Origin: Brachyspira pilosicoli
GTDB lineage: Bacteria; Spirochaetota; Brachyspiria; Brachyspirales; Brachyspiraceae
Length of the DNA stretch: 64,000 nt
Assembly: GCF_036997485.1 (NCBI RefSeq)
Contig: NZ_JAWLPU010000003.1
Coordinates: 186,001-250,000 of the forward strand
Direction: 5' to 3'
This document shows, piece after piece, positions 28,197 through 43,679 of the stretch. How positions within the stretch are numbered: the first letter of the stretch is position 1; the number at the start of each line of letters is the position of its first letter. The position numbers and the translations under genes were made by a program. The notes beneath the pieces are model-generated. The model had not been told where the DNA came from, did no database searches, and saw only the letters and a program-made list of their open reading frames with translations.

Positions 28197-28955
28197 ATGT
28201 CAGATAAAAGTATAATATTATTATTTCATGGCGCAAATAATTATAAAGAAACAGATAAAATGTATTCTGATATAATAAAAAGATTTGAAAATGAGTTTAA
28301 AGATTTTTATATAACGGATGCTTATAGTTCAAGCGCTATAAGAAAAATGATGAAAGAAGCTTCTGATTTTCCAGCAGTTAAAGATAGATTAAATGAGCTA
28401 AAAGATAAGAATATAAAAGAAGTATATATTGCTCCTATAGTTTTACTGCAAAATAAAGACTATATGCGTATATTCCACACTACAGTACCTTTTAAAGAGG
28501 AATATTCTGTATTAAAATACGGTGAATCATTATTATCCATTCCAAGTGATTATGATAATATGGTATCTATAATAAAAGAAAAATTTAATGATTATAATAA
28601 TTATACATATTTATTTGTAGGCCACGGAGGAAAGCATCATTCTAATTCTGCTTATGGAATGCTCGCTTATAAATTAAGTCTTCAAAATGACTCGTATTTG
28701 TCTATGACTTTCTCTGAAGGTATAAGCTTAGATGAAATAAAAGATAAACTTTTAAAATTAAATAAAAAAGTATTAATAATCCCAATATTAATATCAAAAT
28801 CATTTCATTATAAGAATGATATATTAGATGGTATATTTAATGCTATAAAAGAATTAGGCATTGAAGCTGAAGTATTCGATAAAACTTTAGGAGAATGGGA
28901 CTCTTTTATAAATTTATGTATAAATAAAACCAAGAAACTTATAAATAAAAATTAA
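28197..28955 (+). CDS. cbiK: CbiK-type sirohydrochlorin chelatase
   Basis: The 252-residue protein begins SIILLFHGAN and has FVGHGGKHHSNSAYGML near residue 142, the class II chelatase metal-binding His. LSMTFSEG follows, then ILISKSFHYKND, which supplies the second His region. Length and motifs fit CbiK, which inserts cobalt into sirohydrochlorin in anaerobic cobalamin synthesis. No other cobalamin genes are here. Its neighbours make sirohydrochlorin and need siroheme for AsrC, so iron insertion is the likelier role. GGAGTAGGA precedes the ATG. It converges on asrC with only 14 bases between and no terminator. Confidence 0.85.
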   Translation: MSDKSIILLFHGANNYKETDKMYSDIIKRFENEFKDFYITDAYSSSAIRKMMKEASDFPAVKDRLNELKDKNIKEVYIAPIVLLQNKDYMRIFHTTVPFKEEYSVLKYGESLLSIPSDYDNMVSIIKEKFNDYNNYTYLFVGHGGKHHSNSAYGMLAYKLSLQNDSYLSMTFSEGISLDEIKDKLLKLNKKVLIIPILISKSFHYKNDILDGIFNAIKELGIEAEVFDKTLGEWDSFINLCINKTKKLINKN

Positions 28956-28969
28956 AATATTAGTCTTAT

Positions 28970-29938
28970 TTAAACATAATGTATACCTTTCCAATAAATA
29001 GGAGTATAAACTTCAGCTATATCAGGCAACTGTACATCTTTTAAAGCCCACTTTTTAAACTCTTCAAATCCTGTTCTATCAACTATATATCCTATATGTT
29101 CTTTTTCGCCAGGAGCAGTTAAATCTATATATTGTTTTACATATTCATAAGTATTTAATATGATTTTTACTATGCTATCCTCATCAACCCATTTTATAAA
29201 GTCTTCACCAAGTCTCGGATTTTTCTTGCCGGTTCTTCCCATTATTGTAAGTCTGTAATATTTTTTTTCGCTTCTCGTCCAAGCTCTCATAGGGCATTGA
29301 ATAACACATTCACCGCAGCCTATGCACCCTTTATGGTTTCTTTCTATTTTATAATTAACCATACTAAGAACATCGGCAGATTTTCTTTTGCATGATTTTA
29401 TGCAAGCTTTACAGCTTATGCATCTATCTTTTTCGTATTGGGGATGAGTCATTCCAATAATTCCAAAGTCATGCATTCTCACTTTAGCACAATCATTAGG
29501 ACACCCTGTTAAAGCCACTTTAAAATGTAAGTCATTAGGAAATATTGCTTTCTCTATTTTCTGAGCAAATGCTGTAGTATCATAGCATGCAAAAGGGCAA
29601 ACCCTATTTCCAATGCACGCAGATATATTTCTTGTTCCAGATGAAGTATAACCTTTTCCTTTTTCATCTTGATTAATATTAAGTCCTTCTATTATAGGCT
29701 GTAAAAGTTCATTAACTTTTGGCATATCTTCCATTTTTATATCAGGAATTTCTAACCCCTGACGTACAGTCATATGAATTGTGCCATTACCATAATTGTC
29801 TGCTATATGTTTTATAATATCCAAATATTTAACATTTAAATGCCCGCCGGGAACTCTTATTCTTGAAGCAGTTAATCCTCTTTTTTTAGTAATACGGAAT
29901 GCATTTTTTTTAAGTTTTTTTACATTTATATCTAACAT
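28970..29938 (-). CDS. asrC: Anaerobic sulfite reductase subunit C (siroheme/Fe-S)
   Basis: The 322-residue protein belongs to the nitrite/sulfite reductase family. The siroheme-linked [4Fe-4S] site is built from NISACIGNRVCPFACYD (Cys-x5-Cys) and ALTGCPNDCAKVRMHDFGI (Cys-x3-Cys). An inserted ferredoxin domain carries CISCKACIKSCKRK and CIGCGECVIQCP. GHLNVKYLDIIKHIADNYG-like N-terminal segments fit AsrC. It reduces sulfite to sulfide with electrons from AsrA and AsrB. The start is preceded by GGAG, 11 bases after asrB. Confidence 0.93.
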   Translation of the reverse strand: MLDINVKKLKKNAFRITKKRGLTASRIRVPGGHLNVKYLDIIKHIADNYGNGTIHMTVRQGLEIPDIKMEDMPKVNELLQPIIEGLNINQDEKGKGYTSSGTRNISACIGNRVCPFACYDTTAFAQKIEKAIFPNDLHFKVALTGCPNDCAKVRMHDFGIIGMTHPQYEKDRCISCKACIKSCKRKSADVLSMVNYKIERNHKGCIGCGECVIQCPMRAWTRSEKKYYRLTIMGRTGKKNPRLGEDFIKWVDEDSIVKIILNTYEYVKQYIDLTAPGEKEHIGYIVDRTGFEEFKKWALKDVQLPDIAEVYTPIYWKGIHYV

Positions 29939-29949
29939 ACAATAAACTC

Positions 29950-30738
29950 CTAATCTACTAAAGTTTTACCTTTAACATAATTAAACACAGGGCCATCTAA
30001 ACAAATATAAACATCGTCTATCTTGCAATGCCCACATTTGCCTATACCGCAGCACATCTTCCTTTCGTAAGATACCCAAATATTCTTTTCTTTAAGTCCA
30101 ATTTTTTCTAATTCCATTATAGAAAATTTCATCATGGCAGGAGGACCAACTACTATTGCTATAGTATTGTCAGTGATTTTTAATTCTGGTATATATTTTG
30201 TTACAAGTCCTATATTTTTATTATAACCATCAGGAGCAGCATCAACTGTTAATATAAGATTCATATTTTTTTCCCATCTTTCAATATCTTCTCTAAATAA
30301 AATATCATCAGGGCTTTTGAACCCTATAATAGTGGTCATATCTTTTCTTTCATTCTTATTAGCACTAAAATAATCTATTACACCTCTTACAGGAGAAACG
30401 CCCGTACCTCCTGCAATTATTATAATATCTTTGTCTTTATATAAATTAACATCAAATCCATTTCCATAAGGTCCTCTCATAAAAAGCTTGCTTCCAATGT
30501 ACTTTTCAAATATTTCATTAGTAACTTTTCCTACTTTTCTTATGGTTAAATCAACGCTTCCTTTTTCTATGCCGCTTATTGATATAGGTGCTTCTCCAAA
30601 CTTTGGAATTGATACTTCAAAAAATTGTCCTGGTTTTGATTCCCCGTTATATGACATTTTAAAAGTATATTCAATTTCTGTATGCTTTTTGATATCTAAA
30701 ATCTCTGATAAAAAAGGCACATATTCATTGTTACTCAT
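29950..30738 (-). CDS. asrB: Anaerobic sulfite reductase subunit B (FAD/NAD(P)H)
   Basis: This 262-residue protein has a ferredoxin-reductase-like layout: a beta barrel with MRGPYGNGFDV for FAD, and a nucleotide domain with IIIAGGTGVSPVRGVIDYF. A C-terminal cysteine cluster, CCGIGKCGHCKIDDVYICLDG, binds Fe-S. It feeds NADH electrons to the Asr complex. Its ATG overlaps the asrA stop by four bases (ATGA), so translation is coupled. Confidence 0.93.
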   Translation of the reverse strand: MSNNEYVPFLSEILDIKKHTEIEYTFKMSYNGESKPGQFFEVSIPKFGEAPISISGIEKGSVDLTIRKVGKVTNEIFEKYIGSKLFMRGPYGNGFDVNLYKDKDIIIIAGGTGVSPVRGVIDYFSANKNERKDMTTIIGFKSPDDILFREDIERWEKNMNLILTVDAAPDGYNKNIGLVTKYIPELKITDNTIAIVVGPPAMMKFSIMELEKIGLKEKNIWVSYERKMCCGIGKCGHCKIDDVYICLDGPVFNYVKGKTLVD

Positions 30739-31742
30739 TTAGATACCTCCTTCATAGCATCTTCCAATTTATTGATGCAGTTAGAGTATGATATATATTC
30801 AGGACAAGCATCATCACATCTTCCGCATCCCACACACATAGTATATCCATTTCTTTTTTTATAATCAAAAACCTTATGCATAACCTTAAAACGCATACGC
30901 TCTCCATTTTTCTTCCTGTAAGCTCCTCCTCCAGCAACATCAGTATACTCATCTACCATACAAGAAGCATGCACCCTTCTTCTCTCCCCAACCTTTCCAT
31001 TATCAGTATAAAAAATGTCTTGCATAGTAAAGCATGTACAAGTAGGGCATACAAAATTACATCTTCCGCAGTTAATACATCTTGTGTCATATTCATCCCA
31101 CATCTTTGATTTATAAACATCTAAACTTAAATTTTTTGCTACTTCTACTTTAATATCATTCTCTCTTACATAATCTATCTCTATATCTGATTCTTTATAC
31201 TCTTTAAATAAACTCCTAAACTCTTCACTCTTGCAATCTATTTCAAAATAATTATCTCTAACGTTTAGAGCAAAATCATATTCATCACATTTATTGCTAT
31301 CCATACTCACACAAAAGCAATTATCAAAAGATTTTGAACAGCCTATTAGAGCGAATTTTATATTATCTCTCAAACGCTTATAATAATAATCTTCAAAACC
31401 ATTTTTAAGATATATTTGATCTAATCTTTTTATAGCATGCAAATCACAGCTTCTTAAAAATATTAATGCTGTTTTTTCTCTTTCAATATTAGCCTCTTTT
31501 ACTTCATCTTCTGTAAAATAAAATAATGTTTGAGTGATTGGCAAAATAGATTCTTTAAATGAATAATTAGATTTTTTATTAAATTCTATATCATCAATAT
31601 TTGAAATATAATCATATCTTACTATATCCGTATCAGAAAATGTTCCTGTACCTTTAAAATTTTTAGGAGCATAAATCAAATAGTGCTTTTTTAGATTGTC
31701 AATCAGATTTTGAAAATCCGATTTATCTAATTTATATCCCAT
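30735..31742 (-). CDS. asrA: Anaerobic sulfite reductase subunit A (ferredoxin-like)
   Basis: The 335-residue protein ends in two ferredoxin motifs: CINCGRCNFVCPTCTC and CVGCGRCDDACPEY. The N-terminal region, with FLRSCDLHAIKRLDQIYL, is typical of AsrA and the related hydrogenase beta-type subunits. It passes electrons from AsrB to AsrC. It is the first gene of the operon, with a strong Shine-Dalgarno AAAGGAGG and a regulated promoter (31772-31813). Confidence 0.92.
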   Translation of the reverse strand: MGYKLDKSDFQNLIDNLKKHYLIYAPKNFKGTGTFSDTDIVRYDYISNIDDIEFNKKSNYSFKESILPITQTLFYFTEDEVKEANIEREKTALIFLRSCDLHAIKRLDQIYLKNGFEDYYYKRLRDNIKFALIGCSKSFDNCFCVSMDSNKCDEYDFALNVRDNYFEIDCKSEEFRSLFKEYKESDIEIDYVRENDIKVEVAKNLSLDVYKSKMWDEYDTRCINCGRCNFVCPTCTCFTMQDIFYTDNGKVGERRRVHASCMVDEYTDVAGGGAYRKKNGERMRFKVMHKVFDYKKRNGYTMCVGCGRCDDACPEYISYSNCINKLEDAMKEVSK

Positions 31743-31771: not shown

Positions 31772-31813
31772 ATTATAGACATTATTAAAAATAAGTATGT
31801 GATATATATCACA
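31772..31813 (-). promoter_or_regulatory. asrABC promoter with CRP/HcpR-like operator
   Basis: A perfect 16-bp palindrome, TGTGATATATATCACA (31798-31813), lies upstream of a perfect minus-strand TATAAT (31777-31772). The site centre is about 41 bases upstream of the predicted start, the class II activator position. No good -35 box is present, as expected for an activator-dependent promoter. The palindrome fits GTGA-N6-TCAC as read by CRP- and HcpR-like regulators; such a regulator is encoded immediately upstream. Confidence 0.75.
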
Positions 31814-31857
31814 CTGCAATATTAAAATTTTATTAAGAAGTTATTTTATTAAATAAA

Positions 31858-32547
31858 CTATATATCATAAAAGTAATTTCTTAACTTTTCTATATCTTTT
31901 ATAAATATAAAATTGTCTTTGAATTCTATAAAACCTAATTCTGATAATTTTTTTATTTGTCTTGAAACTGTTTCTCGTCTTGAGCCTATTAATTCAGATA
32001 TATATGTTATAGTTAATGGTACATTTATTTTTACTATGTTTTCACAGTATATGCCATTATCTTTTACTAATTTTAATAATTTTGAAGCTAATTTTTTTTC
32101 GCATTCTAAATTGTTTGTAGTGTTTTGAAGCTGTCTATATAGCCTTCTTATATTCAGAGACATTAAATCCAATATTGCTTTAGATAATGCAAAATCTTTT
32201 TCCATAGCTTTTATGAAAATATTTGATGGTATAAGCATAACAATAGAATATTCTAAAACCTCGCAGTTTATAGAAACTTTTATATCTTGTATGCTATGTT
32301 CATTTAATATTTGTCCTTCTCCAAATATAAAAATTATTTTCTTATCTCCGAAATTATTTAATTTATATAATGCTGATTTGCCTGACACTATTATATATAT
32401 AGTATCAATTTTATCTTTATCCATGAATATATGTTCTTTTTCCTTGTATACTTTTAGATTGGAGAATTTTTTTATATATTCTATAGTTTGAGAATTAATA
32501 TTTTGGAATATTTTTATTTTATTGAATGCTTCATCTAATGTAATCAT
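31858..32547 (-). CDS. CRP/FNR-family regulator, HcpR-like
   Basis: The 229-residue protein has an N-terminal cyclic-nucleotide-like sensor domain (1-120), a dimer helix and a winged helix-turn-helix: ITYISELIGSRRETVSRQIKKL (about 180-201). In CRP the recognition residues are Arg-Glu-x-x-x-Arg; here RETVSR keeps all three, predicting GTGA half-sites rather than the TTGAT sites of FNR. It lacks FNR's N-terminal four-cysteine cluster. It lies 115 bases before asrA, separated by a matching palindrome, so it probably controls asr and the moeA-narA operon. The signal (for example nitrosative or redox) is unknown. Confidence 0.82.
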   Translation of the reverse strand: MITLDEAFNKIKIFQNINSQTIEYIKKFSNLKVYKEKEHIFMDKDKIDTIYIIVSGKSALYKLNNFGDKKIIFIFGEGQILNEHSIQDIKVSINCEVLEYSIVMLIPSNIFIKAMEKDFALSKAILDLMSLNIRRLYRQLQNTTNNLECEKKLASKLLKLVKDNGIYCENIVKINVPLTITYISELIGSRRETVSRQIKKLSELGFIEFKDNFIFIKDIEKLRNYFYDI

Positions 32548-32594
32548 AATTTCTTATTAAACAATATAATTATATAAAAAAAAGTCAATAAGTA

Positions 32595-32623
32595 TTGATA
32601 AAAAAATAATAACTTGCTAAAAT
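32595..32623 (+). promoter_or_regulatory. Promoter of hemC
   Basis: TTGATA (32595-32600), a 17-base spacer and TAAAAT (32618-32623). Transcription would begin near 32630, which rules out the TTG at 32632 as a practical start codon and supports the ATG at 32665. Confidence 0.6.
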
Positions 32624-32664
32624 GAACAAAATTGTTTTTAGTAAGATGGAATTATATTTTTATT

Positions 32665-33579
32665 ATGATGAGAAAAAAGATTATTGTAGGAAGCAGAAAC
32701 AGCAAATTAGCATTGGTTCAAACAAATATAGTAATAGAAAAATTAAAAAAGATAGATAAATTTAAAGAAATAAATATAGAAATAAAAGAGATAACAACAA
32801 GCGGGGATAAGCATTTAATAGAAAACCCAAACAGTACAGAAAAATCTTTAAAGGGTGCTTTTACAAAAGAAATAGAAGAGGCTTTATTAGATAAAAAAAT
32901 TGACTTTGCTGTGCATTCTATGAAGGATATGCCTATAATTAATACAAAGGGATTGGTATATGCTTCTGTGCCGGAGAGAGATGATGCAAGAGATGTATTA
33001 ATTTCAAAGAATAATATTAAATTCAATGATTTGAAAAAAGGTTCTGTAATAGGAACTACATCTTTAAGGCGTTCAAGTTCTGTTATGATGCTTAGAGATG
33101 ATTTAATTATAAAACCTATACGCGGGAATATTAATACAAGATTAAAAAAGCTTGAAACAGAAGATTATGATGCTTTAATATTGGCTGCTGCTGCTATGAA
33201 GAGATTAAATCTTGAGAGTATGATAACTGAATATTTTTCTATAGATGATATTCTTCCTGCACCGGGGCAGGGTGCATTATGTGTGCAGTGTCGAGAAAAT
33301 GATTATGAGATGATAGAAGTGTTGAAATTGATAGAAGATAAAAATGTAAGAAGATTAGTTGATATTGAAAGAGAGTTTGCATGTCTTTTTGATAGCGGAT
33401 GTAATTCCCCGGTGGGGGGCTATGCAGAAGTTAGTTATGATAATAATATTATACTTCATGGAAATTTCTTTTATAACAATAAAAACTATAGAGATAAGAT
33501 TTCTATTAATGAATTAAAAGATAAAAATAATTTAGCTTTAGAACTTTATAAAAGAATAAGTAAAAAAATGAATATGTGA
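32665..33579 (+). CDS. hemC: Hydroxymethylbilane synthase (porphobilinogen deaminase)
   Basis: The product (304 residues from ATG 32665) starts with RKKIIVGSRNSKLALVQT, the conserved HemC N-terminus. It continues with AVHSMKDMP, TSLRRSS, PIRGNINTRL and APGQGALCVQC. The cofactor-binding loop is FDSGCNSPVGGYAE, whose Cys holds the dipyrromethane cofactor. It joins four porphobilinogen units. It is the only tetrapyrrole gene besides cbiK on the plus strand and lies back to back with the regulator gene. Confidence 0.95.
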   Translation: MMRKKIIVGSRNSKLALVQTNIVIEKLKKIDKFKEINIEIKEITTSGDKHLIENPNSTEKSLKGAFTKEIEEALLDKKIDFAVHSMKDMPIINTKGLVYASVPERDDARDVLISKNNIKFNDLKKGSVIGTTSLRRSSSVMMLRDDLIIKPIRGNINTRLKKLETEDYDALILAAAAMKRLNLESMITEYFSIDDILPAPGQGALCVQCRENDYEMIEVLKLIEDKNVRRLVDIEREFACLFDSGCNSPVGGYAEVSYDNNIILHGNFFYNNKNYRDKISINELKDKNNLALELYKRISKKMNM

Positions 33580-33621
33580 AAAATAGGTTATCTATAAATA
33601 ATATATAAATAACCTATTTTT
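33579..33621. terminator. Bidirectional terminator between hemC and the TDT transporter gene
   Basis: AAAAATAGGTTAT (33579-33591) and ATAACCTATTTTT (33609-33621) form a perfect 13-bp stem with A and T runs at either end. It serves both converging genes and overlaps the last base of the hemC stop codon. Confidence 0.75.
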
Positions 33622-33626
33622 TCTAT

Positions 33627-34577
33627 TTATTCTTTATTAGGGGTTAAATACATTTTTACAAAATTAAAAAATACTAAACACATAAAAGTAGATGATATTA
33701 GCAATTGAAAACCTGTAACATTTGTTGCCAAAACTCCTAAAGTTTTATAAGTTTCAATAGAAGTGAAAAATGCTCCTGCTCTGTATCCTGCTAAAGTACC
33801 TATAGCCATAGGGAATGTTAAAGCTCCAAATAATGGAGTAAATCCGTTTTCAAAAAATTTAAATATATTAAATAATATATATATAAATGTTAATAATACA
33901 CAAATATATAATATTAGTGCTACAGTAGGATTAAAATACATTTTTAGGCTTTCTACATTATTGAAGTTTAAATAACTTACAAGACATAAAGAACAAGGAG
34001 CTAACAATACTGTTTTTGTTTGAACAAAGTTAGCAGGTATAGGTTTTGTGATTATTCTTGGTATTAAAAATATTAATATAAGAACATAAACGCCTATTCC
34101 ATAAAAAGTTATTCCCATAGCAAGTTGAGGAGGAAGCATATTTATTCCAGCAACTGTAGAAACTAAAAGTCCGTTATAAGTAACAAAATATGAAGGGAGT
34201 AAAAAATCTACTTTAAAATTCATAATTATATGGTATATAGTGTAGCATAATATCATAGCCATATGCACAAATACACCTGTTAAAAATATAGCTTTTCCTA
34301 AAGCAGTGTTATACCCAGCAATATAAGTACCAAATAGCATAGTGTTCATCGTTATTGTGGTATACATAGCTGCCAAAACTCCGCTTTTATATTCTTCTTG
34401 TACTTTAGGAAAAAAGAATATAACTTTCAATATGCCTAATATAGCTGCAAATCCAGCTAAACACATGCATAAATGTCTTACCCAACTGAAACCTAATAGA
34501 TTATAGACATTTGATAATGTAGCTAATCCTACGCAGGTTCCAACAAAACCAATAGGTAATCCTTTTAATTTAGTCAT
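33627..34577 (-). CDS. TDT-family membrane transporter (TehA/SSU1-like)
   Basis: This 316-residue protein has about ten membrane segments and little else. The start LKGLPIGFVGTCVGLATLSN, the middle ALGKAIFLTGVFVHMAMILCY and the end GALTFPMAIGTLAGYRAG fit the tellurite-resistance/dicarboxylate transporter family. That family includes TehA-type anion channels and the yeast sulfite exporter SSU1. It is the last gene of the moeA-narA operon and next to the asr genes, so an anion such as sulfite, nitrite or nitrate is the plausible substrate. AAGGAG precedes the ATG. Confidence 0.75.
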   Translation of the reverse strand: MTKLKGLPIGFVGTCVGLATLSNVYNLLGFSWVRHLCMCLAGFAAILGILKVIFFFPKVQEEYKSGVLAAMYTTITMNTMLFGTYIAGYNTALGKAIFLTGVFVHMAMILCYTIYHIIMNFKVDFLLPSYFVTYNGLLVSTVAGINMLPPQLAMGITFYGIGVYVLILIFLIPRIITKPIPANFVQTKTVLLAPCSLCLVSYLNFNNVESLKMYFNPTVALILYICVLLTFIYILFNIFKFFENGFTPLFGALTFPMAIGTLAGYRAGAFFTSIETYKTLGVLATNVTGFQLLISSTFMCLVFFNFVKMYLTPNKE

Positions 34578-34597
34578 ACTTAAAACTCCTTTTATTG

Positions 34598-35722
34598 TTA
34601 AATTATTATAAGATTTTGTGTTATAAAATCTATTATTGAAGAAATATTATTAATATCAAAAACAGGGACTTCGCTTTTATAATTAATATCATTTGTAATT
34701 AAGGCTTTTAAAGAAGAGATTTCACATAAAGGTTTATTAGTTACATCTGTTCTAAACACTTCAATTTTTGGTATATTATCAAGATGTTTAAAACCCTCTA
34801 ATATAATTATGTCATACTCATTTAAGCTTTTTATAAACTTTATTAAATCATCTTTTTCATCTTCACTTTTTATATAGTCTTTTACAAGCATATATTTTAA
34901 TGGGGAATATATTAAAGTAGCAGAAGCTCCATTATTTTTAAAATCATAAGTATCTTTTCCATCTGTATCAAAAGAATGGTCATGAGATGTATGTTTTATC
35001 ACAGCAACACTTTTACCCATATTAACAAACTCTTTTATTAATTTGCATATTAGAGTTGTTTTCCCAGAGTTTCTTTTGCCACAAACGGCAAAATATTGAG
35101 GTATAGTTTTTTGAAATAATAAATAATCATCTGAAGTATTTATATTGTGTAATTTAAAAATTGTATATTTTAAATCTATATATTTAACTTTAATTTTTTC
35201 TATTAATTTTTTTATTCTATACTCTTTATTTTGTATATTTTTATTTACAGCATTAATTATATTTTTTGAATATATACCGCATAAAAAATAAGCCTTGTTA
35301 TTATAAACAGGTATAAAAGCATCATGATATTCATCTACCATACTTTGCATATAGTAAAGAAAATCTCTGCTAATATTAGGGGTATCACAGCTTAAAAATT
35401 GTATATAATCAGTATTAATATTAACAAATGCACTATGAATACCTCCTAAAGCACCTATGTTTTTATTAATATCTTCTATTGTATATATTTTTTTATTATA
35501 TTTTTCTTTATAATCAGAAATCAAGGAATTATATTTATCAGAATTATTCACAGATAAATATAATTCTTGATTACTGCATTCTGAAATAATATGTTCTAAA
35601 AACGTGCTGTTGTTATCATACTTAAGCAAGGCTTTATCTTTAAAATCAAATCTTTTGCTATTTCCACCGCATAAAACAACAGCAGCTATATTTTCATTAA
35701 AAAGCAAATTTAAAGTTTTCAT
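34598..35722 (-). CDS. MobA-MobB fusion, molybdenum cofactor guanylylation
   Basis: The 374-residue protein joins two enzymes. Residues 10-195 are MobA (AAVVLCGGNSKRFDFKDKAL; LSCDTPNISRDFL), which adds GMP to molybdopterin. Residues 208-370 are MobB (FAVCGKRNSGKTTLICKLI, a P-loop; VAVIKHTSHDHSFDTDGKDT), a GTP-binding helper. Together they make the bis-MGD cofactor needed by the molybdoenzyme of this operon. It starts inside the upstream oxidoreductase gene (26-base overlap). Confidence 0.9.
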   Translation of the reverse strand: MKTLNLLFNENIAAVVLCGGNSKRFDFKDKALLKYDNNSTFLEHIISECSNQELYLSVNNSDKYNSLISDYKEKYNKKIYTIEDINKNIGALGGIHSAFVNINTDYIQFLSCDTPNISRDFLYYMQSMVDEYHDAFIPVYNNKAYFLCGIYSKNIINAVNKNIQNKEYRIKKLIEKIKVKYIDLKYTIFKLHNINTSDDYLLFQKTIPQYFAVCGKRNSGKTTLICKLIKEFVNMGKSVAVIKHTSHDHSFDTDGKDTYDFKNNGASATLIYSPLKYMLVKDYIKSEDEKDDLIKFIKSLNEYDIIILEGFKHLDNIPKIEVFRTDVTNKPLCEISSLKALITNDINYKSEVPVFDINNISSIIDFITQNLIII

Positions 35723-36929
35723 CTATATTAAAAAAGTCTGAATAATCTATATTAAATAATGGTTTTTTTACTTTACTTACATCAATATTTTCTTTTATTA
35801 ATTGAGTAAGTATTCCAGCATAACGCAAATCACCTTGAAGCAAAGCACCATATATTTTACCGTTTTTATGAACTATCTTTCTGTAATTTCCTTTTTTATC
35901 ATCAAATATCTCTACCGAATATGAATCATCAGGAGGTATAACATTTCCTATAGACATTGAAGGAATATTAAAGAAATTCATTGTAGACTTAAAATTAAAT
36001 AGAGTATCTATATCAATATTATTTCCTGTCATATTATTAGCAGCTATTATTGCCTGTTTAACAGCAGCAGACCATATAGCAGTAGTTGCAGTAATATCTC
36101 CGGCAGCATATATATCATCAATATTTGTTTTACCAAATTTATCTATAACAACTCCTCCCATTTTATTTAACTCTATTTTGCTGTCTTTTAAATAATCAGT
36201 ATTAGGAGTAACTCCCATAGCAACAACTATAAAATCAGCATCAATCTTTCTTCCATCTTCAAGCTCAACAAATTTAGGATTTTTATTACTATCAATATCT
36301 ATTCTTTTTACTTTAACACTATAATACTGAGAAACATTATTTTCTTTTAATTTATCCTGATAAACATTAGCAGAATACTCATCTAATTGTTTGCTTATAA
36401 TGAAAGGAGCTATATCAATAACAGAAAGCTTTTCTAATCTATAAGGCAAAAGCCCGCTTACAACATCAACACCAATAAGCCCCGCACCAATAACTACAGC
36501 ATTTTTATATTTTTTAGCTAATTCCATTATTTTTTTACAATCATCAAGAGTTCTAACTCCCACAACATTATTAGCCTCTCTTAAATTTTCAATAGGAGGT
36601 ATAGCACTTGAGCCTCCTGTAGCTAAAAGAAGTTTATCATAACTCTCTTCATTTCCATTTGAAAGCTTTACAGTTTTTTTATCTGTGTCTATAGATATAG
36701 CTTTAGTATTGCTAATCCATTTTACATTATACTTATTAAAAAAATCTTCAGGCATAAAATTAAGAGATTCTTCTGTTCTTTTTCCGCTTATATAATAATG
36801 AAGCATGCATCTTGAATATATTTTATCATCTATAGATACTAAAGTGATATCAGCATCTTTATCTAACATTCTAAGTTCTCTCGCCCCATTTAATCCTGAA
36901 GCAGAAGCACCTAATACAAGATATTTCAT
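35697..36929 (-). CDS. NAD(P)/FAD-dependent oxidoreductase, nitrate-reductase partner
   Basis: The 410-residue flavoprotein has an FAD-binding Rossmann motif at the N-terminus (YLVLGASASGLNGAREL), an NAD motif GAGLIGVDVVSGLLPY (about 150) and a second FAD motif IYAAGDITATTAI (about 270). It resembles the N-terminal part of NirB and NADH-dependent rubredoxin/nitrite oxidoreductases. It likely carries NADH electrons to the neighbouring ferredoxin and molybdoenzyme, as in clostridial nar clusters. One base separates it from the ferredoxin gene. Confidence 0.85.
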   Translation of the reverse strand: MKYLVLGASASGLNGARELRMLDKDADITLVSIDDKIYSRCMLHYYISGKRTEESLNFMPEDFFNKYNVKWISNTKAISIDTDKKTVKLSNGNEESYDKLLLATGGSSAIPPIENLREANNVVGVRTLDDCKKIMELAKKYKNAVVIGAGLIGVDVVSGLLPYRLEKLSVIDIAPFIISKQLDEYSANVYQDKLKENNVSQYYSVKVKRIDIDSNKNPKFVELEDGRKIDADFIVVAMGVTPNTDYLKDSKIELNKMGGVVIDKFGKTNIDDIYAAGDITATTAIWSAAVKQAIIAANNMTGNNIDIDTLFNFKSTMNFFNIPSMSIGNVIPPDDSYSVEIFDDKKGNYRKIVHKNGKIYGALLQGDLRYAGILTQLIKENIDVSKVKKPLFNIDYSDFFNIDENFKFAF

Positions 36930-36930
36930 A

Positions 36931-37347
36931 TTATTTTACCTCCTCTAAAGTAATAGCTTTCATAGGACATTTTTTTACGCATTGAGAGCCTTCTTCATAA
37001 TGCTCACACATATCGCATTTTAATATTTGTTTTTTTGTTAAGCTATCTTCTTTTAATACTCCATAAGGACAAGCCATTATGCACATATAACAGCTTGCAC
37101 ACTGTTCTTTATCATAAGTTACATATCCTGTTTTTGGGTCTTTTTTCATAGCCCCAGACATGCAGGTATATACGCATTCTGGTAAATCGCAGTTTCTGCA
37201 AAATATAGGGGAGTTTTTATAATTACTGCTTATAACAACTCTGTTTCTTGGCTCTTCTCCGTCATGTGCAACTATACATGCACTTACGCAAGTTAAGCAG
37301 CCTATGCATTTATTTCTATCTATTGCTATTCTTTTTATAGGTTTCAT
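36931..37347 (-). CDS. Four-cluster ferredoxin, electron-transfer subunit
   Basis: This 138-residue protein carries four cysteine groups in the DmsB/NrfC-like pattern: CIGCLTCVSAC, CRNCDLPECVYTC, CASCYMCIMACP and CDMCEHYEEGSQCVKKCP. It therefore should bind four [4Fe-4S] clusters. It lacks a signal peptide, so it acts in the cytoplasm. It lies between the molybdoenzyme and the flavoprotein and is the obvious electron wire between them. Confidence 0.9.
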   Translation of the reverse strand: MKPIKRIAIDRNKCIGCLTCVSACIVAHDGEEPRNRVVISSNYKNSPIFCRNCDLPECVYTCMSGAMKKDPKTGYVTYDKEQCASCYMCIMACPYGVLKEDSLTKKQILKCDMCEHYEEGSQCVKKCPMKAITLEEVK

Positions 37348-37366
37348 ATTTACTCCTTTTTTATTT

Positions 37367-39451
37367 TTATATAGCCTTTTTTATATTAACAGGTGTTGAT
37401 TTATATGAAGGCTCTTTTGAATAAGTATCATATACACTAGGAGTTAGGGCATTAGTTTCTATATAGTGTATAGGAGCATATAATTGATTATCAGAAAGAG
37501 AATCTGTGATAAAAGCAATAAATTTTCTTGTCTGACCATTTATAGATTCCACTTCAACGGCATCAAAATTATTGATTCCTTTATTTTTTGCCATAGCTTC
37601 ACTTATGTAAATATAAGCATTCTTCACAGATACATCATTAACAACATCTAATTCTCTTGTTCTTGTTTGAGTATGCCATTGACCTACAGTTCCTCTTCCT
37701 GTATTTAATATATAAGGATATTTTTCGCTGCATTGAACAGGGTTTTCTATAGGCATTTCAAACATAAACTTAGCTTTTTTAGTTGGAGTATAATATTGAT
37801 TGTTTTCAAAAAGTCTTCTTTCATTATCAGTGAGAGGTGCACTTCCTTCAGGATAAGGCCATTGTATGCCAGGTGAATCATTTAAAGCATCATAGTCAAC
37901 ACCTGTAATATCACAAGGCATACCCTTACTGCATTTTTTCATTAATTCAAAAGCATCTTTAGGAGTTTCCCAGCCTTTTAATAAATCACCCATTCCTAAA
38001 GCTTCACCCATTTTGTAAAATACTTCATAATCTGTTAATTTGCCGTTTTTTTCTGTGAGTACAGGGCGTAATTTTGATAATCTTCTTTCTGTATTAATTA
38101 TTACACCTTCTTTATAAAGTCCTGAAGTAACAGGGAAATAAACATCGCAAAGCTTAGAGCTGTCTGTATCATCATAAATATCTTGTACTATGAATAATTC
38201 TAAATTTTCAATAGCTTTTTTGAAAGTTTCATTATTAGTCCAAGAATGTCTAGGATTAGTACAGCATATCCAAAGTGCTTTAATTTCTCCAGCGATAGCT
38301 TTTTCTATAATTGCATTATATGTAATAGTAGGGGCATTTGGAAGCCATTTTTCTTCTATGCCTAATGCTTTTGATACAGCTTCTCTTCTTTTAGGGTTAT
38401 CGAAATCTCCGCCTCCGTATAATCCTGCAGTATTACTGAAGGCTCTTGAGCCCATAGCGTTGCATTGTCCTGTTATAGAATTAGCACCTGTTCCAGGTCT
38501 TCCTATATTTCCTGTCATAAGTGCCAAGTTAATTATTGACTGAGCAGTGCGTACTGCCTGATAACCTTGATTAACTCCCATAGTCCACCAGAATGAAACA
38601 TTTTTTCCTTCATGTATCATAGTAGCTATTTCCATAACTTGTTCTTCTGATAAGCCTGTGTTTTCTTTTGCTTTGCTTAATGGAAAGTTTTTTACATGTT
38701 CTTTGTAAGCTTCAAAGTTTTCTGTATAATTTTCTATATATTCTTTATTAATCCAATCTTTTTCAATTAAAACATTAGCCAAAGTATAGAATAAATAAAT
38801 ATCTGTTTTACTTTTTAATCCGTACCAATAATCTGCTTCTTTAGCAGTTTCTGATTTTCTAGGGTCTATTACTATAACTTTTTTATTAGGAATTTTATTT
38901 AACCTTATTCTGTCCCATATAATAGGGTGTGCCACTATAGGGTTAGCACCAATTAAAAATATAGTGTCTGATAATTCAAAGTCATTTAAAGTATATGGAG
39001 GAGCATCAAAACCAAAACTTTGTTTATGAGCAACAACAGAAGTAGCCATGCATAATCTTGTATTTCCGTCTAAATTTCCGCCCAAAAAATTTCTAACAAC
39101 ATGTCCAAATATAGCCATACCCTCTGTTTCTAATTGACCTGTACTTATTCCAGCTATAGCCTGAGGTCCGTATTTTTCTTTTATTTCTTTTAATTTGGAA
39201 GCAGTATAATTAAAAGCCTCTTCCCAAGAAACATGCTTAACATTACCTTGTTTGTCTTTAATTCTTGGCTTAGAGTCAGGGCTATTCATAAGACCTTGCT
39301 TATTTAAATTAAGTCCTTTAATACAAGAGAACCCTTTATTAACAGGATAGTTTTTAGATGGTATAACTTTTGTGATTGTTTTACCATCTGATGTAACATC
39401 AAAATTGCATGCTAATGAGCAGTAATTACATGTTGTTTGCATAGTATTCAT
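37367..39451 (-). CDS. Molybdopterin oxidoreductase, NarA/NapA-like nitrate reductase
   Basis: A 694-residue bis-MGD enzyme. The N-terminal [4Fe-4S] motif is CNYCSLAC plus GFSCIKG. The Mo-ligand region is GNTRLCMATSVV (Cys near residue 133), which corresponds to the NARHCM segment of NapA and points to nitrate reductase rather than formate dehydrogenase (selenocysteine or Cys in another context) or DMSO reductase (Ser). There is no Tat signal, so it is cytoplasmic, like clostridial NarA and assimilatory NasA. Neighbouring ferredoxin, flavoprotein and Mo-cofactor genes support this. Substrate not proven. Confidence 0.85.
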   Translation of the reverse strand: MNTMQTTCNYCSLACNFDVTSDGKTITKVIPSKNYPVNKGFSCIKGLNLNKQGLMNSPDSKPRIKDKQGNVKHVSWEEAFNYTASKLKEIKEKYGPQAIAGISTGQLETEGMAIFGHVVRNFLGGNLDGNTRLCMATSVVAHKQSFGFDAPPYTLNDFELSDTIFLIGANPIVAHPIIWDRIRLNKIPNKKVIVIDPRKSETAKEADYWYGLKSKTDIYLFYTLANVLIEKDWINKEYIENYTENFEAYKEHVKNFPLSKAKENTGLSEEQVMEIATMIHEGKNVSFWWTMGVNQGYQAVRTAQSIINLALMTGNIGRPGTGANSITGQCNAMGSRAFSNTAGLYGGGDFDNPKRREAVSKALGIEEKWLPNAPTITYNAIIEKAIAGEIKALWICCTNPRHSWTNNETFKKAIENLELFIVQDIYDDTDSSKLCDVYFPVTSGLYKEGVIINTERRLSKLRPVLTEKNGKLTDYEVFYKMGEALGMGDLLKGWETPKDAFELMKKCSKGMPCDITGVDYDALNDSPGIQWPYPEGSAPLTDNERRLFENNQYYTPTKKAKFMFEMPIENPVQCSEKYPYILNTGRGTVGQWHTQTRTRELDVVNDVSVKNAYIYISEAMAKNKGINNFDAVEVESINGQTRKFIAFITDSLSDNQLYAPIHYIETNALTPSVYDTYSKEPSYKSTPVNIKKAI

Positions 39452-39482
39452 ATTTTTTTATACTCCTTCATTTAATTATTTT

Positions 39483-40676
39483 TTATATAAACTTTATATT
39501 AACTTTCTCTAAAGCTTTAATTTCATTAACCCCAACATCTATTTTTACAAGTGCTTTTATATTTGAAGGCAAATAGAAAGAGCCTTTATAATCAATTAGT
39601 TTAACAAGCGTTGCATCTTCATTAAAAACAAACTCAGCAGGCAAATATTCTTCAGTATCGCTTTTTTTCCTTTTGTATTCTTCAAGTAAAGGCAATTTAA
39701 AAAATTGATTATTATATTTACAGCCCATAGAATTATATATATAAGGTTTAACGAAGTTTTCAAAAGCAACTAATACAGCAAAAGGATTGCCAGGAAGTCC
39801 GAATATCGCTTTATTATCTTTTTTGCCAAAATAGAATGGTTTTCCAGGTTTTATTTTTACTCCATGACAAAGTTCTTTTATATTAAGTGCATTAAAAACT
39901 TCTTTTGTAAAGTCCATATCTCCAAATGATATGCCGCCGCTAACTATTATAATATCATTTTCATCTAATGCTTTATATACAACATTATAAAGACTATCAT
40001 AATCATCTTTTACTATGCCATAGAATTGGCATTCTATATTCATTGCTTTTAATTTATTTTTTATTAAAAAGCTGTTTGAATCGTATATCTTTCCTTCTTC
40101 AAGTTCTTTTGTAATATCTGTAAGTTCATTTCCTGTACTTATAAAAGCAATTTTAGGATTTTTTACTACCTCAATTTCTGAGTATCCGTTAGATGCTAAT
40201 TTTGATATGTCTTCAGCTTCTAATATTTTTACATTTAATAATAAATCACCTTTTTTATATCCGCTTCCTTTATATATGATGTTATCAGACTTTTCATCTT
40301 CTTTTATATAAACATATTTTTTTTCATTTTCATCAATAATTTCTGCAGCTTCAAATTTAGATATTTTATTTATATTGTTTGGAACAACCGCACCTGTCAT
40401 TATTTTTATGCAGCAATTTTCAGGAATGTTTATGTTTTTGCTTGAATTTCCTGCTATGATACTTTCTTTAAGCAGCAAAAATTTTTTATTACCATTATTA
40501 AAATATCCGTACCCATCCATTGCAGATTTATTAAAAGGAGGGTCATCTATTTTGTAATAAAGTTCTTTTTTAAGTACTCTTTTATATGCATCTTTTATAT
40601 TTATAACTTCGCTTTGTAAAGATATACTATTATTAAATATAATATTATAAACTTCATTTACTAATAATTTATGCAT
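39483..40676 (-). CDS. moeA: Molybdopterin molybdenumtransferase MoeA
   Basis: The 397-residue protein shows the MoeA layout: DDPPFNKSAMDGYGY at the N-terminus, IMTGAVVP, then the MoCF-binding domain with ISTGNEL, YDSNSFLIKNKL and IVSGGISFGDMDF. PGNPFAVLVAFENFV follows and domain IV comes at the end. It inserts molybdate into adenylated molybdopterin. It heads the operon for the nitrate-reductase-like enzyme, directly behind a CRP/HcpR-like operator. Confidence 0.93.
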   Translation of the reverse strand: MHKLLVNEVYNIIFNNSISLQSEVINIKDAYKRVLKKELYYKIDDPPFNKSAMDGYGYFNNGNKKFLLLKESIIAGNSSKNINIPENCCIKIMTGAVVPNNINKISKFEAAEIIDENEKKYVYIKEDEKSDNIIYKGSGYKKGDLLLNVKILEAEDISKLASNGYSEIEVVKNPKIAFISTGNELTDITKELEEGKIYDSNSFLIKNKLKAMNIECQFYGIVKDDYDSLYNVVYKALDENDIIIVSGGISFGDMDFTKEVFNALNIKELCHGVKIKPGKPFYFGKKDNKAIFGLPGNPFAVLVAFENFVKPYIYNSMGCKYNNQFFKLPLLEEYKRKKSDTEEYLPAEFVFNEDATLVKLIDYKGSFYLPSNIKALVKIDVGVNEIKALEKVNIKFI

Positions 40677-40699
40677 ACAATATACCTATATAACCCTTT

Positions 40700-40746
40700 A
40701 TTATAGAATATCATGTATGCTTATAAATGCCGTGATTTAAATCACA
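40700..40746 (-). promoter_or_regulatory. moeA-narA operon promoter with CRP/HcpR-like operator
   Basis: The palindrome CGTGATTTAAATCACA (40731-40746) contains GTGA-N6-TCAC. On the minus strand TATTCT (40710-40705) lies at exactly the same distance from the site centre as TATAAT does at asrA. A better TATAAT (40705-40700) is five bases further away. The site is in the 86-base gap between the Met8-like gene and moeA. Confidence 0.65.
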
Positions 40747-40762
40747 AATTATAATAAATTTA

Positions 40763-41221
40763 TTATATGTTTTTATCTAAATATTTTTTGATTTTCTCTT
40801 TTAATTCTAAAGCTTTTTTGGGATTACCATCTGCTGATATTGCTATAGAATATTCTTCATTTTCTATGCTTGTGCAAAAACGTATATTCATATTTTCTTT
40901 GGAAGAAACATTATTAACTAATATATTTTCTTTAATGCATAAATTAGATATTTCATTATTTATTTTCTCATCATCAGTAGCTGCAATAACTAAAAAATAT
41001 TTTTTTAATGTTTCTCTATCTATTTCAAATTTATTATTTATTATTTTTATTTTTTTATTATCTGCTAATTTTTTTATATCATCTAATATTTTATCAGAAA
41101 TAACTGTAACATCTTTACATTCATATTTTATAAGCTTATTAATTTTTCTTAAAGCAATATTCCCTCCGCCTATGATGAGGCACTCTTTATTTTTTATATC
41201 TAAAAATACTGGGAAAAACAT
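40763..41221 (-). CDS. Precorrin-2 dehydrogenase (Met8/CysG N-terminal type)
   Basis: The 152-residue protein starts FFPVFLDIKNKECLIIGGGN, the NAD-binding Rossmann motif of the CysG-N/Met8 family, and continues with FLVIAATDDEKINNEIS. It has the dehydrogenase part only; the chelatase dimer domain typical of Met8p is minimal. It would oxidise precorrin-2 to sirohydrochlorin with NAD, leaving metal insertion to CbiK. It starts four bases after the hemB stop. Confidence 0.88.
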   Translation of the reverse strand: MFFPVFLDIKNKECLIIGGGNIALRKINKLIKYECKDVTVISDKILDDIKKLADNKKIKIINNKFEIDRETLKKYFLVIAATDDEKINNEISNLCIKENILVNNVSSKENMNIRFCTSIENEEYSIAISADGNPKKALELKEKIKKYLDKNI

Positions 41222-41225
41222 TTTA

Positions 41226-42194
41226 TTATAGCTCTTTTAAATATTTGCTTAAATCCTTTGCATGATAAGTTATGATTATATCAGCACCCGCTCTTTTTAA
41301 TGCATACATATTTTCTAAAACAGCTCTTTTCTCATCTATAAATCCAAGCTTTGATGCTGCCTTAATCATAGAATATTCTCCGCTTACATTATAGGCTGCT
41401 ATTGGAATATTGAAATTATTTGATACATCTTTTATAACATCTAAATAAGACAAAGCAGGTTTTATTATAAAAATATCTGCTCCTTCATCTATATCATTTT
41501 CTATCTTTTTTATGTATTCTTTGCTGTTTCTAAAATCCATTTGATAACTTTTTCTATCTCCGAAACTTGGGGCAGAATCAGCAGCCATTCTAAAAGGTGA
41601 ATAATAGCAAGAAGCATATTTTACACTATAAGACATTATAGGAGTATTATAATATCTATTTTTATCTAAAATATTTCTAATAGCATAAACATGACCGTCC
41701 ATGCAATCTGAAGGAGCTACTATATCGCTTCCAGCTTGAACATGTGATAATGCTATTTTTGATATATATTCAAGTGTAGAATCATTATCAACATTATTTT
41801 CGCATAATATTCCGCAATGTCCATGTGAAGTATATTCGCACATACATACATCTGTTACAACTAAAAGATTAGGAAAATTTGATTTTATATATTTTACAGC
41901 ATTTTGTATTATTCCATTTTCATCAAAAGAAGAGCTTCCTATTTCATCTTTATTTTTAGGTATTCCAAATAATAATACACCTCTTATACCTAAACTAACT
42001 ATATCTTCTAACTCTTCTTTTAATTTGTCTATAGAAAGTCTAAACTGATTAGGCATAGCTTCTATTTCTTTTTTTACATTATTTCCTTCTTCTATGAATA
42101 TTGGATATAAAAAATCGTTCATAGTTAAATTTACATTGGATATTAAATCTCTTATAATAGCATTATTTCTTGTTCTTCTGGTTCTTTTAAACAT
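41226..42194 (-). CDS. hemB: Delta-aminolevulinic acid dehydratase (porphobilinogen synthase)
   Basis: This 322-residue enzyme shows RRTRNNAIIRDLI at the start, the zinc-type cysteine set DVCMCEYTSHGHCGIL, the active-site segment APSDCMDGHVYAI, MDFRNSKEYI and IIKPALSYLDVI with the Schiff-base Lys. YNVSGEYSMIKAA completes the family pattern. It condenses two aminolevulinate molecules to porphobilinogen. The cysteines indicate zinc dependence. It starts after AGGAG, 24 bases past cobA-hemD. Confidence 0.95.
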   Translation of the reverse strand: MFKRTRRTRNNAIIRDLISNVNLTMNDFLYPIFIEEGNNVKKEIEAMPNQFRLSIDKLKEELEDIVSLGIRGVLLFGIPKNKDEIGSSSFDENGIIQNAVKYIKSNFPNLLVVTDVCMCEYTSHGHCGILCENNVDNDSTLEYISKIALSHVQAGSDIVAPSDCMDGHVYAIRNILDKNRYYNTPIMSYSVKYASCYYSPFRMAADSAPSFGDRKSYQMDFRNSKEYIKKIENDIDEGADIFIIKPALSYLDVIKDVSNNFNIPIAAYNVSGEYSMIKAASKLGFIDEKRAVLENMYALKRAGADIIITYHAKDLSKYLKEL

Positions 42195-42218
42195 GTTTTT
42201 TTATTAATCTCCTAATAA

Positions 42219-43679
42219 TTATTTATCTTCCAATAAAGATTTTATAACACCTTCAGTATAAAATTCTTCAGCTTCTAAATATACACTTAAATTATTATCT
42301 CTTATTTTTTTGCTTGTTACAGGTCCTATAGATGCTATTTTTTTATTTTTAATTAAAGATACGTTATAATTAATTGATTCCAAAAATGATTCAACTGTAG
42401 ATGGGCTAAAAAATATTATATAATCTATCATATTAATATTTTCTATCATTACTTTCTCTTCATATTTTATTTTTTTAGTATTATATAATTCTAATTTTGT
42501 GAAGTTTCTATTATATTTGCTGCTTATTTCATCTGCATTTATAGGAGATATATTTGATGTGATTATTAATATATTATCATTTTCTTTAGTATGGTTTAGA
42601 GATTCTTTTATTAATTCATTAACTAAAAATTTATTAGGGTAAAAGTCTGCTTTAATTTTATATTTTTCTAAAGCATTTAAAGTTGCTTTTCCTACAACGC
42701 CTATTTTTATATTATTTAATATTCTCAAATCATCTATTTTTTCAATAAATGCATTAGCTCCATTTGATGAACATAATAATATAGCTTTATATTTATTTAA
42801 ATCATTTATTTGTTTATTATTATATTCTATATCTATCATAGGCAGCAGATAACATTGTGCTCCTAAGCTTATTAATCTATTGTATAAAATATTGCCTCTT
42901 TTTTTATCTCTTGTTATTAAAATAGACTTTCCGCTTAAAGGCATTTTATCATACCAAGAAAATTTATTTTGAAATTGAACCACTTCCCCAACAATAATAG
43001 CAGCGGGGGACTTTATGTTTTTTTCTTTAGATAAACTAACAATATTTTCTAAAGTGCCTACTATTACTCTTTGATTTGGACGGCATGCATTTTCTACTAT
43101 TGAAGCTTGAGAAGATTTTGATTTGCCGTTTTCTAAAAGTCCATTAACTATCTTTTCAAGGTTTGCTATTCCCATCAAAAATACTAAAGTCCCTTCCAAT
43201 TTTGAGATTATAGTAAAATCTAAATGATTATATTCACCCATAGCATGGGCTGTAAATACATGAAAACTTCTTGATATATTTCTATAAGTTAAAGGAATGC
43301 CTGCATATTCGCATGAGGCTATTGATGAACTTATGCCTGGCACTATTTCAAATTTAATGTTGTTGTCATATAAGAAATCTAATTCCTCTCCGCCTCTTCC
43401 AAATACTAAAGGGTCTCCGCCTTTGAGTCTTACAACTGTTTTATTTTGCAAGGCATATTTTAGAATTGTTTTATGTATAGTATTTTGAAGTTCAGGATTT
43501 CCGTGCTCCTTTCCTAAATATACTAACTCTGCTTTTTCATTGCAAAATTGAAGTATACTATTATCAACAAGCCTATCATATATAACACAATCGCATATAG
43601 ATAAAACTTCTTTTGCTTTTAATGTTAAAAGCTCATAAGAACCGCAGCCGCCTCCAACAATATATACTTTGCCAGACAT
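42219..43679 (-). CDS. Uroporphyrinogen-III methyltransferase / uroporphyrinogen-III synthase fusion
   Basis: The 486-residue protein fuses two enzymes. Residues 1-240 are the SAM-dependent methyltransferase CobA/SUMT: VYIVGGGCGSYELLTLKAKE, VVRLKGGDPLVFGRGGEE, GISSSIASCEYAGIPLTYR. Residues about 250-486 are HemD (KMPLSGKSILITRDKKRGN; CSSNGANAFIE; FFSPSTVESF). It closes the ring and methylates it twice to precorrin-2, committing the product to the siroheme or cobalamin branch. Such fusions are common in clostridia and spirochaetes. First gene of its operon. Confidence 0.93.
   Translation of the reverse strand: MSGKVYIVGGGCGSYELLTLKAKEVLSICDCVIYDRLVDNSILQFCNEKAELVYLGKEHGNPELQNTIHKTILKYALQNKTVVRLKGGDPLVFGRGGEELDFLYDNNIKFEIVPGISSSIASCEYAGIPLTYRNISRSFHVFTAHAMGEYNHLDFTIISKLEGTLVFLMGIANLEKIVNGLLENGKSKSSQASIVENACRPNQRVIVGTLENIVSLSKEKNIKSPAAIIVGEVVQFQNKFSWYDKMPLSGKSILITRDKKRGNILYNRLISLGAQCYLLPMIDIEYNNKQINDLNKYKAILLCSSNGANAFIEKIDDLRILNNIKIGVVGKATLNALEKYKIKADFYPNKFLVNELIKESLNHTKENDNILIITSNISPINADEISSKYNRNFTKLELYNTKKIKYEEKVMIENINMIDYIIFFSPSTVESFLESINYNVSLIKNKKIASIGPVTSKKIRDNNLSVYLEAEEFYTEGVIKSLLEDK

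Follow-up and report, generated by a model that had tools for sequence, protein, structure and literature searches.

The window analysed here, a stretch of 64,000 nt from Brachyspira pilosicoli, carries an asrABC operon and a nitrate reductase-type (nar) operon, each preceded by a GTGA-N6-TCAC palindrome (Table 1). The best overall explanation, to which we assign a probability of about 0.85, is that asrABC has a dedicated regulator of the Crp/Fnr family, the product of the gene at 31858-32547. This protein would bind a TGTGA-N6-TCACA operator whose centre lies ~41 bases ahead of the transcription start, and it would most likely be a class II activator that recruits RNA polymerase. Where a nar operon is also present (moeA-narA-FeS-FAD-mobAB-TDT in this genome, narA-FeS-FAD-TDT in Cetobacterium), the same operator would place it under this regulator as well. 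A common anaerobic signal would then jointly induce the reduction of nitrate to nitrite by Nar and the reduction of nitrite and/or sulfite by AsrABC. The association of operator, regulator and operon and the two-operon regulon are strongly supported by comparison across genomes, and the asr and nar operons are very probably switched together by one regulator, which presumably contacts both operators directly. The signal would be nitrite or nitric oxide, or else sulfite.

Table 1. Features of the asr and nar region, in window coordinates.
Feature	Position	Strand	Evidence
asrC, siroheme sulfite reductase subunit	28970..29938	-	TIGR02912, 561 bits (cut-off 324)
asrB	29950..30738	-	TIGR02911, 436 bits (cut-off 289)
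asrA, anaerobic sulfite reductase subunit A	30735..31742	-	TIGR02910, 523 bits (cut-off 323)
TATAAT, -10 of asrA	31772..31777	-	begins 29 bases from operator centre; same or +1 in relatives
Operator TGTGATATATATCACA upstream of asrA	31798..31813		exact pattern match; kept in 8/8 Brachyspira with asr and in outgroups
Crp/Fnr-family regulator linked to asrABC, 229 aa, helix RRETVSR	31858..32547	-	Pfam cNMP_binding and HTH_Crp_2; orthologues upstream of asrA in 3 phyla; one clade (97/97)
TDT-family anion channel/transporter, last nar-operon gene	33627..34577	-	weak TIGR00816 match; 38% identical to final TDT gene of the Cetobacterium nar operon
mobA-mobB fusion	34598..35722	-	Pfam NTP_transf_3 and MobB
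NAD(P)H/FAD oxidoreductase, NirB N-terminal-like	35697..36929	-	TIGR02374, 218 bits, below cut-off; same order in Cetobacterium
4Fe-4S ferredoxin-like subunit	36931..37347	-	model match; same gene order in Cetobacterium
narA-like molybdopterin oxidoreductase	37367..39451	-	domain/model matches; Cys-Met vs Sec-His of formate dehydrogenases
moeA, second copy	39483..40676	-	Pfam MoeA_N and MoCF_biosynth
TATAAT, alternative -10 of moeA	40700..40705	-	offset 34; TATAAT or TACAAT in relatives
TATTCT, candidate -10 of moeA	40705..40710	-	offset 29; TATTAT at same offset in relatives
Operator CGTGATTTAAATCACA upstream of moeA	40731..40746		exact match; kept in 6/6 Brachyspira with nar cassette

Both palindromes lie before asrA and moeA-narA exactly as the initial annotation had described, and they are the only two exact matches in the window, in agreement with its statement that no other such palindrome precedes a start codon here. 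The moeA site is given in Table 1 as read on the forward strand; toward moeA it reads TGTGATTTAAATCACG. The whole-genome scan proposed in that annotation returned six GTGA-N6-TCAC sites in 2.72 Mb (ten contigs) against ten for the reversed control pattern, so that the bare genome count is in no excess over the control. The four sites other than those at asrA and moeA fall inside ORF frames of 442-879 codons and have non-palindromic centres, which leaves the asrA and moeA sites as the only intergenic ones, and the longer TGTGA-N6-TCACA form occurs once in the genome, at asrA. The computed chance of a site is ~2.5e-4 in the 115-bp spacer between the regulator and asrA and 1.9e-4 in the 86-bp spacer of moeA. 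A search allowing two mismatches gave 124 sites versus 147 for the control pattern, and with fewer sites than the control, weak operators cannot be called. An extension of the regulon to the regulator gene itself or to the flanking siroheme genes was rejected, as the window holds no further exact site.

The location and conservation of the two sites are not due to chance. The genome-wide count, being no higher than the control, is what would be expected if the palindromes were fortuitous or belonged to some other conserved DNA, such as terminators, and had no regulatory role; this reading is strongly disfavoured and retains next to no probability, given that the sites are conserved and recur across phyla at the same place, with a low expectation in each of six outgroup spacers (see below).

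The regulator falls in the Crp/Fnr family with 42 bits for PF00027 and 52 bits for PF13545 (cut-offs 27-27.5), while its 34.8 bits against the CRP equivalog model are far from the cut-off of 266. Its recognition residues RETVSR and its lack of the Fe-S cysteines of FNR, both pointed out in the initial annotation, stand: the first cysteine is C95, which means that there is no FNR-type N-terminal cluster. The helix RRETVSR together with the operator follows the CRP pattern, in which RE..SR/GR reads TGTGA-N6-TCACA. In a published analysis of the family, R180 and E181 correlate with operator positions G3 and A6 (PMC1274295); R180 and E181 of the regulator thus predict GTGA and fit the TGTGA half-site. 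Among the three Crp-type proteins of the genome, the R-E-x-x-S-R helix is found only in the asr-linked one, the helices of the other two (SSDRSALSR and GININDVQK) having no R-E pair. The gene for the protein with helix SSDRSALSR is convergent with an Rrf2-type regulator gene (L151:82-1168, contig C2 of this genome). The regulator shares with E. coli CRP the residues R180/E181/R185, the TGTGA-N6-TCACA operator and a class II-like position, but differs in lacking the cAMP pocket motif, as judged by inspection of the sequence, and in having a local instead of a global regulon.

Class II activators classically bind at about -41. The asrA palindrome had been placed at this position relative to a perfect TATAAT without a good -35, and the layout was borne out: no -35 is recognisable, and the -10 begins at offset 29 or 30 from the operator centre in the relatives. 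Since a promoter lacking a -35 should need an activator, the regulator likely acts as a class II activator at asrA, as predicted from the promoter layout. For moeA, the TATTCT that the initial annotation had put at the identical spacing is indeed present at offset 29, but a perfect TATAAT five bases further down had been overlooked. Both moeA candidates, at offsets 29 and 34, are conserved in the relatives, and the class II case is weaker at moeA because the better -10 is five bases off that spacing. In most lineages, outgroups included, a -10-like hexamer occurs at offset 28-31; outside Brachyspira the spacing varies by 1-2 bases, and no exact offset common to all lineages was found within this range. 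As the operator covers the -35 region, it could block RNA polymerase as well as recruit it, and the regulator might then repress asr and nar or be dual; we consider this unlikely for a promoter that should need an activator and has its site at the classical activating position. For HcpR of Desulfovibrio, repression of some targets has been proposed, but the predicted repressor sites there overlap the -10 instead (PMC545781).

Conservation was followed in 26 Brachyspira genomes, several of the relatives being draft MAGs. The asrA gene is present in eight of them, all of which also carry the regulator (protein search recovered it in five, and a strong PF13545 match at the asr locus in all eight); none of the 18 genomes without asrA has a strong PF13545 match. 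The chance of this co-occurrence of regulator, asr and operator is 6e-7 with shared ancestry ignored; because the genomes do share ancestry, 8/26 does not stand for eight independent events. The asrA operator was found in all eight asr-bearing genomes, six of which also have the nar operon, each with the moeA operator. In the relatives, the operator cores are invariant at 13/14 positions for asrA versus 23/57 in the rest of the leader (p=4e-4) and at 14/14 positions for moeA versus 31/55 (p=1e-3). The initial annotation had called for this alignment and named a lack of conservation in related genomes as evidence against its proposal; the palindromes are conserved. In G108, which has no nar cassette, everything from moeA through the TDT gene is gone together with the operator, so that only 7 bases separate the ends of the met8-like gene and hemC, and the regulator, asr and its operator are kept. 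The asr operon and its operator are also present in G147, an 88% complete genome in which nar was not found.

Brachyspira genomes free of the regulator have GTGAW6TCAC at about the control rate. A third site identical to the moeA operator core, GTGATTTAAATCAC, lies in G152 (C217:49864, L062) on a contig of short ORFs; having no asr, nar or regulator nearby and phage-like ORFs by inspection, it was set aside and may be a chance occurrence. The regulator gene of the MAG G153 (L013:10001-10686) has a one-base frameshift near codon 96, which is either an assembly error or decay. At several loci (L011:10687, L012:10687, L013:10686, L066:1294 and L142:10619-10632), the operator overlaps the stop codon of the regulator, the TGA being that of TGTGA/GTGA.

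Outside Brachyspira, the asr-linked regulator occurs in one other spirochaete family, three lineages of Fusobacteriota and two of Clostridia. G211, from that other spirochaete family, has a regulator of 41% identity ahead of asrA, with CGTGATAAATCTCACG overlapping the stop codon of the regulator. The best matches of a search of plasmid records were regulators encoded directly upstream of asrA or its operon in Paraclostridium, F. vincentii, Ilyobacter, Cetobacterium and Acetoanaerobium, with one small gene in between in Cetobacterium and one divergent gene in Acetoanaerobium. The operator between regulator and asr is TGTGATAATTATCACA in F. vincentii and Acetoanaerobium, TGTGACCTAGGTCACA in Ilyobacter, TGTGACTAGAGTCACA in Cetobacterium and, with one mismatch, TGTTATATATATCACA in Paraclostridium; it is thus exact in five of the six outgroup lineages and one base off in the sixth, the expectation of an exact site being ~1e-3 to 3e-3 per spacer. 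Four asr operons without a linked regulator (Peptoclostridium, an Escherichia marmotae plasmid, L128 and L129) had no operator, their best matches deviating by two mismatches (L128) or three.

In Cetobacterium, the narA-FeS-FAD-TDT operon carries TGTGACTAAAGTCACA, which is nearly identical to TGTGACTAGAGTCACA at its asrA, and lies unlinked to asr, ~250 kb away on the same replicon. This recurrence of the asr and nar pairing in another phylum, seen in one species (two strains), is the strongest evidence for the predicted regulon. Taken with the link to asr across phyla, it points to a conserved regulon built on asr, in which the nar operon is accessory. The comparison hence supports the proposal of the initial annotation that an adjacent regulator would read a CRP-type operator at asrABC and at a nar-type operon, together forming a small regulon.

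The affiliation with HcpR suggested in that annotation did not hold up. HcpR is defined by its control of hcp (PMC1274295, PMC545781), and a reading in which the regulator is an NO-responsive HcpR that added asr and nar to its regulon draws on the HcpR1 of Desulfovibrio, which likewise belongs to Crp/Fnr, lacks the FNR cysteines, recognises the same motif (wTGTGAnnnnnnTCACAw) and has a small regulon made up of redox enzymes, among them a putative sulfite/nitrite reductase (Rodionov 2004/2005; PMC545781). The core target of HcpR1 is, however, hcp and not asrABC, and the gene neighbour of the present regulator is asrA, not hcp. No hcp was found in this genome; it occurs in 14/26 Brachyspira with a distribution that does not track the regulator, and no operator was seen at hcp in the regulator-positive Brachyspira loci examined. 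HcpR2 of Clostridia, Bacteroidota, Fusobacterium and Treponema is also a Crp/Fnr protein of anaerobes from the same phyla, but it controls hcp and reads GTAACN4GTTAC with an R-P helix, as opposed to the RE helix and GTGA operator here. Exact GTAACN4GTTAC boxes are carried by the hcp loci of Paraclostridium, Haliovirga, Parabacteroides, Acetoanaerobium and F. vincentii (L158, L159, L160, L162, L163). F. vincentii and Acetoanaerobium each have, at another place on the record, a gene for a distinct HcpR2-type protein, which coexists with the asr-linked regulator. In the trees, which did not include Desulfovibrio HcpR1, the asr-linked proteins group in a single clade (97/97 and 98/93), and HcpR2 makes up another supported clade; an hcp-linked protein of Acidithiobacillus falls outside the asr-linked clade, its precise position having low support (73/34). 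An HcpR identity is, on these grounds, unlikely.

All three AsrABC subunits exceed the cut-offs of their curated models. The genes of siroheme biosynthesis (cbiK, hemC, met8-like, hemB, cobA-hemD) flank asr and nar at 28197-28955, 32632-33579 and 40763-43679; they fit the siroheme need of AsrC, and none of those in the window has an exact operator. The nar operon runs from moeA through the narA-like gene, the 4Fe-4S protein, the FAD oxidoreductase and the mobA-mobB fusion to the TDT channel. In the NarA alignment, 'trlCMat' of the query stands opposite 'arlXHsa' of formate dehydrogenase, and Cys-Met at the Mo-ligand position is what we take to be the Nap/Nas nitrate reductase pattern. The protein stays below the cut-off of every curated nitrate reductase model, with 363 bits against NasC (cut-off 1100), and below that of Fdh-alpha as well (465 bits, cut-off 666); residue signature and gene context together suggest nitrate as its likely substrate. 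By its published description, the cytoplasmic nitrate reductase operon of C. ljungdahlii (CLJU_c23710-30) has the same three-gene cluster (PMC9124969), to which the B. pilosicoli operon adds moeA, mobAB, the TDT channel and the operator in common with asrABC.

The other moeA of this genome sits elsewhere, with moaA-moaC. A lack of MoaA for the cofactor was considered and rejected: the protein behind a weak PF06463 match is MoaA-like, though short, and is encoded next to MoaC, both near that moeA on contig C2 at ~349.8-352.2 kb (L113, L154). MoaC is present in 19/26 Brachyspira, mostly without a nar operon, and G108, which has no nar, also lacks it. Since MoaC occurs mostly without nar, another molybdoenzyme probably uses the cofactor made with it in Brachyspira.

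Signal and purpose might also be purely sulfur-based, with sulfite inducing asr and the molybdoenzyme reducing a sulfur oxyanion or some other oxyanion instead of nitrate. AsrABC of Salmonella reduces sulfite, the asr operons of Ilyobacter and Paraclostridium contain or adjoin an FNT channel gene, and the FNT family includes hydrosulfide channels, as the TDT family does sulfite exporters; furthermore, F. vincentii and Acetoanaerobium have asr but gave no NarA match. This is a real possibility, somewhat short of even odds, against which stand the Cys-Met signature of NarA and the induction of Asr during nitrate reduction in another anaerobe: AsrABC protein rose 195-fold in Acididesulfobacillus, whose authors propose that it reduces nitrite (PMC10949509). 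Nitrite or nitric oxide as the signal fits a regulon of nitrate reductase and Asr, and sulfite fits the lineages with asr alone. Control of an asr operon by a transcription factor has been predicted for nirC-asrABC of C. acetobutylicum, where Rex, from an unrelated NAD(H)-sensing family and not from Crp/Fnr, would fill this role (PMC3828012). No described regulator of the present kind was found in the literature searched, which lacked RegPrecise and most subscription journals.

Asr, which produces sulfide, is widespread among anaerobes, gut bacteria included, and its physiological role and versatility have been called enigmatic (PMC10949509). The regulator and its operator, being conserved across Spirochaetota, Fusobacteriota and Clostridia, offer a way to approach this role, since genes preceded by the operator reveal the partners of Asr, and as one such partner is a nitrate reductase-type operon, nitrite reduction by Asr in vivo becomes a directly testable question. 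Tentatively, the regulator may represent a previously undescribed cross-phylum Crp/Fnr subfamily dedicated to asrABC, and the pairing of asr with nar, with nitrite or nitric oxide as the signal, may mean that, in host-associated anaerobes, AsrABC serves as the nitrite reductase in a pathway from nitrate to ammonium.
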